A stretch of 64,000 nucleotides of DNA. Origin: Nocardioides perillae (GTDB lineage Bacteria; Actinomycetota; Actinomycetes; Propionibacteriales; Nocardioidaceae). Made by a program: the position numbers and the translations under genes. The DNA lies in the NCBI RefSeq assembly GCF_013409425.1, contig NZ_JACCAC010000001.1:2294001-2358000 (forward strand), written 5' to 3'. The notes under the pieces were generated by a model. That model made no database searches and was not told where the DNA came from. It saw only the letters and a program-made list of their open reading frames with translations. Positions 41,060 to 44,104 of the stretch are shown in pieces (the first letter of the stretch is position 1; every line of letters starts with the position of its first letter).

Positions 41060-41096
41060 GGTGGTCGAGCAGGGCCGCCAGGCCCGTGTCGAGACC
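41060..41096 (-). repeat. TCGA-ended palindromic element, copy 1
   Basis: Read on the minus strand it begins GGTCTCGACACG and ends TGCTCGACCACC, with a hairpin GGGCC-TGGC-GGCCC between. Same layout as the copies at 41209, 42053 and 43015, but with its own arm sequence. Confidence 0.75.
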
Positions 41097-41208
41097 CCCG
41101 CACCCGGACGCCCACTCTGTTCGGGCAGCACGACGAGCCCGTCACCCCGGTGTCGGGTGCGGGCTGTCGTCGAACAGATGGCTGAAGAGGACCGGACGCC
41201 CCTGTTCG

Positions 41209-41244
41209 TTGTTCGAGCAGGGCCGTCAAGCCCGCGTCGAGACC
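41209..41244 (-). repeat. TCGA-ended palindromic element, copy 2
   Basis: Minus-strand reading begins GGTCTCGACGCG and ends TGCTCGAACAA; arms are GGGCT-TGAC-GGCCC, with one G-U type mismatch. Located just before the stop of the HNH gene. Confidence 0.65.
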
Positions 41245-41266
41245 CGGGTGACGCACGCGCGTGGCG

Positions 41267-42898
41267 TCAGTCCGCGGGTGCGGGTGGGCCGGTGTCGTCG
41301 TGGTGCGGCGGGTCGCCATCGCGCGGCGGCCCGGTGTTGTAGGCCGGTCCGGAGTCCGGGGGCGCTGGTCCAGCATCGAGCGGTGCGGTGTCGTGGGCGA
41401 GGGGCCCGTCGAGGGATCCGTCGAGTGGTCGGGTGCCGGTGTGGTCGCGCAGGTAGTGCGCCCCGTGGGGACTGCGCCACAGCCACGCGCCGGCACCTGC
41501 TGGGGTGAGGGTCCACCTGGTGGCGGCGTGGCCGTGGGTCTTCAGCCGGTGGTGCGGCCGGCACAGCGGCGCGATGTTGCACGAACATGTCGGCCCGCCC
41601 GCGGGCCCAATGGTTGCCTCGCCCGCCTCGCCCGCCGCGTCCGCTTCGCCAGCACGGTCGACCGGGTTGTAGGGGACGGCGTGGTCGTGGTCGCACCTGC
41701 GGGCGGCACGGCCGCACCACGGGAACATGCACGTCAGGTGGGTCAGAGCGCTGTGGTGGGCGAGGCGGCGTGGGACTTCGTAGGCCTCGGTGTGCACCGC
41801 CTCGGCGAGGTCGAGCACCGGCAGCACCGTCACGTGGGGTGCGACCCCGTCGATCCCGGCGGTGGTGAGCCAGTCGCGGATCGCGGCCGCCGACACCGGT
41901 GCCCGGGTCTCCTCCACCCGACCCACCGCCCCGTCACCGGCAGCCAGACGGCCGGGGAACATAGATGAGCGCAGCACCGCGTCGGACACGTGCAGGTGCA
42001 GCAGGTAGCGCCGTCGGTGCCGCGGCGACGACCGACCCGCAGGAGTCTCGGGGGTCTCGACACGCTCGCCGGGGCTCGCTGCTCGACCCCCGTCCACGGT
42101 CACCAGGTCGAGGGTGGCCTGCGCCGACGCGCCGTCGGAACCCCGCACGACGAGGTTCAACAGGGCTTGCGCCGACAACGGCCCCGACTCAGCCGTAACG
42201 CCCAGGGCACGCAGCCGCTGCTTCTCCTCGACCACGGCGTCGTGGATGGTGATGCCGTCGGGCAGGTCGAAACACCCGCTCGCGTCCACCGTCCCTGTCA
42301 AGTCATCGCCGGGTCGACCGTCGAGGTGGACGTCGAAGCGGCGCTGCTCGCGGGCCTCGGCCTGGGCGAGCTCGGCCTCGTCGGGCATGAACCGCGCGAG
42401 CGCTTCGGCGACGAGGCGTTCGAGGGTGGTGGCGCCGATGGTCTGCGCCACGGGTGTCACGTGCCGGTCCACCCAGGCCGCGGCCTCAGGAGTGAGGTCT
42501 CTGCCGAGCACCATCCGCGCGACCAGGCGGGCACGCCACCCGTCCACCCGATGCGCCTGCACCACGTCCCACAACCGCGGCAGCAGGTGACGACACACCA
42601 GGGCCTGGCCGAGATAGGCGGCACCCGAGGCAGTGGACCGCCCCAACCGGGACGCGAACTCCGCCACCGCGAACTCCGTCACCCCCGGCGCCCAGGCCCC
42701 AGCCACCCGCAGGGCGGTGTCGCCGTAGGTACCGGCCACCGTCGCCGCATCGAGGGCGTCGGCGGGGTGCAGATCAGCCCAACAGCACGCAGCCCGCATC
42801 AGCTCCGCGTCGACCACGCGGGCGTCGGCGACCAGCGCGCCGGCACGGTCGAGCACCGCGATCGCGGTATCGAGCTCGGGTGCCGGGCTGGTGGTCAT
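41267..42898 (-). CDS. DUF222 / HNH endonuclease (13E12 repeat family)
   Basis: A 543-residue protein with an N-terminal DUF222 domain (about residues 25-350, helical: FASRLGRSTASGAAYLGQAL; VDGWRARLVARMVLGRDL; CHxx-type region FDLPDGITIHDAVVEEK) and an HNH nuclease (CMFPWCGRAARRCDHDHAVPYNP ... CNIAPLCRPHHRLKTHGH), followed by a D/G/P-rich tail. This is the mycobacterial REP13E12 type, multicopy and suspected to be mobile. Residues about 271-282 (RAASPGERVETP) are encoded by a palindromic element inserted in frame. ATG at 42898. Confidence 0.88.
   Translation of the reverse strand: MTTSPAPELDTAIAVLDRAGALVADARVVDAELMRAACCWADLHPADALDAATVAGTYGDTALRVAGAWAPGVTEFAVAEFASRLGRSTASGAAYLGQALVCRHLLPRLWDVVQAHRVDGWRARLVARMVLGRDLTPEAAAWVDRHVTPVAQTIGATTLERLVAEALARFMPDEAELAQAEAREQRRFDVHLDGRPGDDLTGTVDASGCFDLPDGITIHDAVVEEKQRLRALGVTAESGPLSAQALLNLVVRGSDGASAQATLDLVTVDGGRAASPGERVETPETPAGRSSPRHRRRYLLHLHVSDAVLRSSMFPGRLAAGDGAVGRVEETRAPVSAAAIRDWLTTAGIDGVAPHVTVLPVLDLAEAVHTEAYEVPRRLAHHSALTHLTCMFPWCGRAARRCDHDHAVPYNPVDRAGEADAAGEAGEATIGPAGGPTCSCNIAPLCRPHHRLKTHGHAATRWTLTPAGAGAWLWRSPHGAHYLRDHTGTRPLDGSLDGPLAHDTAPLDAGPAPPDSGPAYNTGPPRDGDPPHHDDTGPPAPAD
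42053..42088 (+). repeat. TCGA-ended palindromic element, copy 3, inside the HNH coding region
   Basis: Plus-strand reading begins GGTCTCGACACG and ends TGCTCGACC, 36 bp; the central arms contain GCTCGCC and GGCTCGC. It is a multiple of three long and leaves the HNH reading frame open, adding about 12 residues between DUF222 and the nuclease part. Confidence 0.75.
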
Positions 42899-43014
42899 GA
42901 GAGGAGTCAAGCAGCCACCACCGACACTCACCGGCGGCCCGGATCCGGCTGTGGACAACGGATCCACGCCGTCGACCTGTGCACGACCAGTGGCCCACGG
43001 CCCGCCTGGACTCC

Positions 43015-43050
43015 GGTCTCGAGACGGCACTGCGTGCCTCCTCGACCACC
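43015..43050 (+). repeat. TCGA-ended palindromic element, copy 4
   Basis: Begins GGTCTCGAGACG and ends CCTCGACCACC, 36 bp, arms GGCAC-TGC-GTGCC. The arm sequence differs from the other copies but still pairs, while the ends are conserved. It lies 10 bp before the tandem array. Confidence 0.75.
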
Positions 43051-43059
43051 CGAGTGCCC

Positions 43060-43480
43060 CAGCGCGTGACCCCTCGACGCGAACGCAGCGCGTGACCCCT
43101 CGACGCGAGCGCAGCGCGTGACCCCTCGACGCGAGCGCAGCGCGTGACCCCTCGGCGCGGGCGCAGCGCTCGGCGGGTGAACAGCGCGCGACCCCTCGGC
43201 GCGAGCCCAGCGCGTGACCCCTCGACGGGTGAGCAACGCGTGACCCCTCGACGGGAGCCCAGCGCGTGACCCCTCGGCGCGAGCGCAGCGCGTGACCCCT
43301 CGGCGCGAGCGCAGCGCGTGACCCCTCGGCGCGGGCGCAGCGCTCGGCGGGTGAGCAGCGCGCGACCCCTCGACGCGAACGCAACGCGCGACCCCTCGAC
43401 CCGAGCCCAGCGCGTGACCCCTCGACGCGAGCGCAGCCCGCGACCCCTCGACCGGAGAGCAGTGCGTGACCCCTCGGGCT
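43060..43480. repeat. 15-copy tandem array, 26-bp unit
   Basis: The 9-mer GACCCCTCG recurs 15 times (first at 43068, last at 43468). Twelve intervals are exactly 26 bp and two are 44 bp; both long intervals contain the same extra CGCTCGGCGGGTGA(A/G)CAG stretch, so a larger block has been duplicated. A typical unit is CTCGACGCGAGCGCAGCG plus CGTGACCC. Each unit can form a short ACGCG/CGCGT hairpin. There are no unique spacers. The unit shares the CTCGA(C) core with the neighbouring palindromic elements. Confidence 0.92.
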
Positions 43481-43489
43481 CGGGTCGAG

Positions 43490-44104
43490 TCAGCGGGGGT
43501 GGGGGTCGTGGGGGTGGGCGGGGTCTGCGGCGAAGGCACGCTCGTAGACGTCGTACACGAGCGCGGCCTTGTGGTTGTTGTAGTCCATCCCGTCGGTGAA
43601 CCCGCGCCGGCCGAGAGCGAGCTTGAGGGCGGCGTACGCCTCGCGGTCGACTGCGTCCCGGCGCAGCCAGTCGCGGAAGAGCACGTGGCGTGCCGGCTCC
43701 GGGGCGCCGGGCGGCCACACGTGGAGGTTCGTGACGGGGGACTCCAGCGTCAGCACCCGGTGCTCGTCCCAGCCGGGCTCGCGCACTCGCAGCACGAAGC
43801 CGGCCCGCTCGAGTGGCGGCAGCCAGGAGGCCTCGTCCGCCGGGTCGGCGACCGTGAGGTCGACGTCGACCACCGCCTTCGCGGCCAGGCCCGGCACCGC
43901 GGTCGAGCCGACGTGCTCCAGGGTCAGGACGGCGTCGCCGAGGGCGGAGCGCACGCGGGCGGCGACCTGCTCGTAGGCCTCGGGCCAGGCGGGGTCGTAG
44001 GGGACGACGGTGACCAGGCGCGGCGGTGGCGCGCCGACGCGGGCCTGGGCGACCTCGGCGAGGTCGGCCAGCGCGAAGGGGCGCCACAGCGGGTGGGTCC
44101 GCAC
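43490..44104 (-). CDS. GrpB family protein
   Basis: A 204-residue GrpB/UPF0157 protein, a nucleotidyltransferase-fold family of unclear activity. Hallmarks: VTVVPYDPAWPEAYEQVAARVRSALGD, LEHVGSTAVPGLAAKAVVDVDLTV (GS...D-x-D nucleotidyltransferase motif), NLHVWPPGAPEPARHVLFRDWLR, YNNHKAALV. GTG at 44104 starts 4 nt after the DUF5703 stop, so the two are coupled. In Gram-positives GrpB proteins sometimes act on CoA or antibiotics; nothing here decides that. Confidence 0.88.
   Translation of the reverse strand: MRTHPLWRPFALADLAEVAQARVGAPPPRLVTVVPYDPAWPEAYEQVAARVRSALGDAVLTLEHVGSTAVPGLAAKAVVDVDLTVADPADEASWLPPLERAGFVLRVREPGWDEHRVLTLESPVTNLHVWPPGAPEPARHVLFRDWLRRDAVDREAYAALKLALGRRGFTDGMDYNNHKAALVYDVYERAFAADPAHPHDPHPR

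Follow-up and report, generated by a model that had tools for sequence, protein, structure and literature searches.

REP elements are among the commonest repeats of bacterial genomes, and where their biology is understood they go together with a Y1 transposase. What defines the REP/REPIN systems is a palindrome with a GTAG tag together with a Y1 RAYT, and the CGTC-tagged REPs have been described as being without a dedicated transposase, some of them lying inside genes (PMC3733652). The REP13E12 (DUF222) repeats of Mycobacterium tuberculosis have been described as repetitive elements located close to insertion sequences (PMC10589994), and the DUF222-HNH genes of the '13E12 repeat family' in the same species as multi-copy genes with frequent gene conversion (PMC13061034). 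Within the limited literature set that we searched, no paper was found that links DUF222-HNH or GIY-YIG genes to hairpins of the kind analysed here.

The DNA that we analysed is a stretch of 64,000 nucleotides from Nocardioides perillae, the whole of which we call the window. The original prediction was of four hairpins with conserved ends and covarying arms between 41060 and 43050, around and inside a DUF222-HNH gene. All four copies are present where they had been placed, and their ends, GGTCTCGA/TCGACC, are conserved in every one. The features of the locus are the following.

41062-41096, minus strand: hairpin D2, GGTCTCGACACGGGCCTGGCGGCCCTGCTCGACCA; the sequence common to eight of the ten genome copies has its right boundary at the outer end of this hairpin
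41117-41177, no strand assigned: long dyad CTGTTCG...AGCCCG...CGGGCT...CGAACAG between D1 and D2, terminator-like, with no T run
41210-41244, minus strand: hairpin D1, directly 3′ of the stop codon in ten of ten copies
41267-42898, minus strand: DUF222-HNH nuclease gene, 543 aa, with HNH residues D405/H406...N441...H449/H450
42053-42088, plus strand: internal element of the GCTCGC type, an in-frame insert in the DUF222-HNH linker that encodes GGRAASPGERVETP, its inner stem not formed
42949-42967, no strand assigned: leader motif CTGTGGACAACGGATCCAC, common to the two divergent DUF222-HNH families of the genome (L041-L050 and L070-L077)
43015-43048, plus strand: hairpin U, GGTCTCGAGACGGCACTGCGTGCCTCCTCGACCA, upstream of the DUF222-HNH gene and inverted relative to D1 and D2
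43058-43477, no strand assigned: 26-bp tandem array of about 16-17 units of CAGCGCGTGACCCCTCGACGCGAGCG, preceding the majority of the DUF222-HNH copies in this genome

The elements are imperfect palindromes of REP-like type, in which an outer stem GGTY/RACC adjoins a conserved TCG and a variable inner stem mostly pairs. A loose form of the end pattern has 11 matches in the window against 0.6 expected, and the seven that are not among the four copies look like ordinary chance or coding matches. Across the 3.61-Mb genome the end pattern is enriched, with 264 matches against four for the reversed control, and exact copies of the window hairpins also lie at the distant genome sites 832333, 1230475 and 2093407. 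A covariance model (R1), built from 26 copies, recovered at least 105 elements in a scan of the genome with a cutoff of E<=1, and 85 when the cutoff was tightened to E<=0.01; because scoring was confined to 150 candidates, the number of weak copies is an underestimate.

Selection on the fold, which the original prediction had proposed, is supported by covariation of both the inner arms and the outer stem. Pairing of the inner arms was better than in shuffled sequences both within the N. perillae genome (covariation score 0.220 against 0.077 shuffled, 0/500; slid structures 0.006-0.095) and across species (0.316 against 0.077 shuffled, 0/500). For the upstream type GGTYTCGNGACGG-stem-CCTCCTCRACC, 94% of cells are paired across species and both sides vary at five pairs. 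The conserved ends can themselves pair as an outer stem GGTC/GACC that covaries to GGTT/AACC, the outermost stem of 45 distinct elements being C4/G in 13, T4/A in 29 and mixed in three (Fisher p 1.9e-8). Covarying arms are a property of three of the four window copies, because the internal copy is of the GCTCGC type, which has unpaired inner arms and shows no folding advantage over shuffled sequence (z +0.79); some GGTT types likewise do not beat shuffles. The observation from which we started was thus partly confirmed. Chance or base composition as the source of the repeats is ruled out by the shuffles and the reversed controls.

GCTCGC types excepted, the elements are palindromes of 20-40 bp with a conserved end and a covarying stem, and they resemble the RAYT-type REP, BIME and REPIN elements in their imperfect palindromy, invariant end tag and variable stems. 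The likeness extends to their organization in inverted pairs and arrays, to their many copies and to the presence of a repeat-flanked single-copy nuclease gene. In other genomes, solo elements form −/+ pairs of two element types (isolated pairs are all −/+) and alternating arrays of up to 14, and the suggestion of a REP/BIME-like system is to that extent supported. Unlike the RAYT-type REPs, however, the Nocardioides elements carry the tag GGTYTCG/TCRACC, neither GTAG nor CGTC, and are strongly tied to a multi-copy gene family. They differ from the CGTC REPs in tag and taxa, and in the association of two nuclease families with them in Nocardioides.

The predicted clustering of hairpins near DUF222-HNH genes was borne out within the genome and across named loci. 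Sixty-five of the 105 N. perillae elements lie within 1 kb of a DUF222/HNH gene, where chance would give 2.5; in 20-kb segments of eight congeneric genomes, hairpins occur at 0.75 per kb within 300 bp of DUF222-HNH genes against 0.03 per kb beyond 3 kb; and concentration at these genes is seen in 26 of 45 genomes. A single-protein query of genome contigs for DUF222-HNH loci gave no match, but an alignment query succeeded and supplied 80 named loci, mostly from Nocardioides and a few of them from genomes already sampled. At these loci the density is 2.07 per kb in the 300 bp upstream and 0.46 per kb downstream, against 0.009-0.035 per kb at 1.5-6 kb, and the reversed control gave none outside genes. 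The GGTYTCG end faces the DUF222-HNH gene on both sides, in 66 of 73 upstream cases (66:7) and 13 of 17 downstream cases (13:4). Exact end patterns show the enrichment near genes, and a one-mismatch pattern, which is too loose, shows it slightly. Per-genome R1 counts do not rise together with DUF222 counts, probably because R1 favours the N. perillae types.

Such an association could arise if the hairpins were regulatory RNA or DNA structures (terminators, attenuators or insulators) of the nuclease genes, duplicated along with these and retained through selection acting on expression. Their fixed positions, directly after the stop codon and in the leader, would agree with this, as would their covariation, but no nuclease gene lies near many of the solo pairs and arrays, tandem copies number up to 14, and some copies sit in frame within coding sequence: an element of the species' own type occupies the DUF222-HNH linker in the window, N. 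potassii, N. lacusdianchii, N. daeguensis and Nocardioides sp. 503. Moreover, the gene is already followed by a conserved dyad distinct from the hairpins, its core kept in 10/10 copies and in the diverged copy L051. We therefore regard a regulatory origin as very improbable.

Pfam and NCBIfam searches with the window protein gave no usable match; homologues at 39-43% identity match DUF222 (PF02720) at 3e-12 and 5e-8, with a weak HNH match, and the HNH residues are invariant in an alignment of 19 proteins, which places the protein in the DUF222-HNH (13E12) family. One predicted structure was poor (pLDDT 47.5) and the model of a compact homologue is good (83.5). In the PDB, the HNH domain of this modelled homologue resembles an HNH nickase and McrA enzymes at E-values that are not significant, and no convincing match was found for its DUF222 domain.

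The genome holds ten copies of the gene at 86-92% amino acid identity (counting the window gene as reference), and two further copies are at 68% and 32%. The ten are all intact and under purifying selection (median dN/dS 0.21). The nearest neighbour of each copy shifts along the gene; this mosaic similarity suggests gene conversion, which could account for part of the sharing among the ten. A second multi-copy family of about nine genes has the same layout, with a 26-bp array upstream and this same leader motif; a hairpin is present in most cases, and an inverted array is frequent downstream. The leader motif contains a DnaA-box-like TTGTCCACA. The 26-bp array GTCGAGGGGTCRCGCGYTGSGCTCGC precedes most copies of both families (L041-L050, L070-L077 and L079) and is inverted downstream of the second; as a folding element it was ruled out (z −0.09). 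Multiple DUF222-HNH copies and signs of gene conversion are shared with REP13E12, but in Nocardioides REP-like hairpins and a 26-bp array bound the repeated unit, and the descriptions of REP13E12 consulted mention no such hairpins.

The HNH cassette is clearly delimited by hairpins. When the regions downstream of the ten copies are aligned, the common block contains D1, the dyad and D2, although D2 has decayed in some copies; in eight of the ten the block extends exactly as far as the outer end of D2, and hairpin U lies upstream in opposite orientation in nine of ten, degenerate in a few. In the tenth copy, L043, the left part is displaced by foreign sequence. At this copy (genome 3358100) the upstream hairpin and array are split from the gene by an IS110-type-looking insertion. 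Inverted repeats at a boundary, as in MITEs and IS elements, are thus found at the right end of the cassette; the left end is variable because of the 26-bp array.

Comparison with relatives indicates that the cassettes are lineage-specific insertions at the two loci compared, since the flanking genes are adjacent in relatives. Alignments to the M20 peptidase and DUF5703 genes lie 24-280 bp apart in genomes G002, G003, G004, G005, G006, G009 and G010 and 3.1 kb apart in N. perillae, where the extra DNA is made up of the cassette and a GrpB-type gene; at the second locus, DUF4229 and ccsB are close in several relatives as against 2.3 kb apart in N. perillae. The relatives are distant, with intergenic sequence too diverged for the insertion ends or a target-site duplication to be read to the base. 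The GrpB-type gene (window 43490-44090) stands between the array and DUF5703; relatives lack it here but have it at other positions, and so it may have come with or after the cassette.

Several IS elements in other bacteria insert preferentially at REP arrays, and DUF222-HNH cassettes and GIY-YIG genes might similarly prefer existing arrays as landing sites, the repeats then being outside the mobile unit. Consistent with this, hairpin type tracks the genome rather than the HNH lineage, solo copies are numerous and hairpins are found outside some cassettes. However, the block common to the ten copies takes in hairpins at either side and reaches no further than the outer one, hairpin polarity is constant, and in-frame hairpins also lie inside genes. 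On balance, we consider landing sites to be quite an unlikely explanation.

As to the enzyme involved, the original prediction of movement by a single-strand (RAYT/IS200-type) transposase was not upheld. No Y1 transposase (PF01797) was found in any of 40 genomes, N. perillae included, in a search in which the positive controls matched; a RAYT/IS200 mover is ruled out for these genomes, and the nucleases nearby are, unlike in RAYT-type REPs, of the GIY-YIG and HNH families.

A solo cluster in the N. perillae genome (3060089-3060962, locus L259) surrounds a small GIY-YIG nuclease gene. Small single-domain GIY-YIG genes stand among hairpins, mostly on both sides, in ten of ten cases in the genus sample and in one in N. 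pelophilus (L255-L258, L259, L260, L261, L263, L281, L282 and L186), with 13 alternating elements at L255; UvrC-type GIY-YIG genes of the same genus do so in none of nine. The GIY-YIG tree separates the GGTC...GACC from the GGTT...AACC types (1/462 label permutations), although this split nearly coincides with one clade and may be a single event. Hairpins are present without a small GIY-YIG gene in genomes G001 (30 matches) and G006 (67), and in genome G012 and N. pelophilus the hairpin type of the GIY-YIG gene differs from that of the HNH genes. The Ssn family comprises small GIY-YIG nucleases that act on ssDNA and, in Neisseria, have repeated genomic sequences as targets. The Nocardioides protein is likewise a small single-domain GIY-YIG protein adjoining a short genomic repeat, but its gene is embedded in the repeats and these are palindromic.

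The DUF222-HNH protein could instead mobilize its own cassette, binding and nicking the flanking hairpins in a transposase-like or homing manner, with solo hairpins as non-autonomous derivatives. The ten intact copies and their purifying selection, the hairpin at the homology boundary, the concentration of hairpins at DUF222-HNH genes and the resemblance of the HNH domain to an HNH nickase and McrA enzymes (not significant, as noted) all point in this direction. Against it, hairpin types are not separated in the HNH tree (permutation 1746/10000), and proteins about 80% identical carry different end types (L222/L207 and L250/L246); the GIY-YIG tree does follow type, and the HNH protein is weakened as the acting enzyme. 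Furthermore, the sampled DUF222 genes of genomes G015 and G001 lack nearby hairpins though these genomes hold many, and a 44-match family in Nocardioides sp. zg-DK7169 has mostly short or weak elements. We judge this explanation unlikely. The family of strain zg-DK7169 (G018, L100-L112) begins with a LexA-box-like TCGAACNNNNGTTCGA promoter, and palindromes that are short, GGTCGAGC..GTCGAGNCC, lie some 70 bp upstream. The proposal that the HNH nuclease acts on the elements is accordingly weakened, the HNH cassette is nevertheless clearly delimited by the hairpins, and the interpretation first offered is partly supported.

Our data are consistent with a model, to which we assign a probability of roughly 0.55, where the hairpins form a RAYT-free REPIN system that spreads within genomes as inverted pairs and arrays, and the window cassette, made up of the upstream hairpin, the DUF222-HNH gene, the two downstream hairpins and the upstream 26-bp array, is an insertion delimited by them. 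In this model, a site-specific nuclease would cut the element in its single-stranded or extruded form, and the DNA between two inverted elements would then be copied by repair or replication, the possible cargo ranging from a short spacer to a GIY-YIG or HNH gene. For the cutting nuclease, we infer that the single-copy GIY-YIG protein is a better candidate than the HNH protein, whose gene may be a selfish passenger or helper. More tentatively, the elements may represent a mobile class of palindromic repeats of actinobacteria, REPIN-like in kind and copied by a small GIY-YIG nuclease instead of an HUH transposase, with DUF222-HNH genes as cargo between inverted repeats; we hold this broader proposal to be somewhat less than evenly probable.

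Overall, our work describes a large REPIN-like population that has no Y1 enzyme and is found around other nucleases, and with it the question of how RAYT-less REPs spread can be put to a direct test. A possible reason is also given for the abundance in actinobacteria of DUF222-HNH genes, which form an orphan multi-copy family with REP13E12 of M. tuberculosis among its members.
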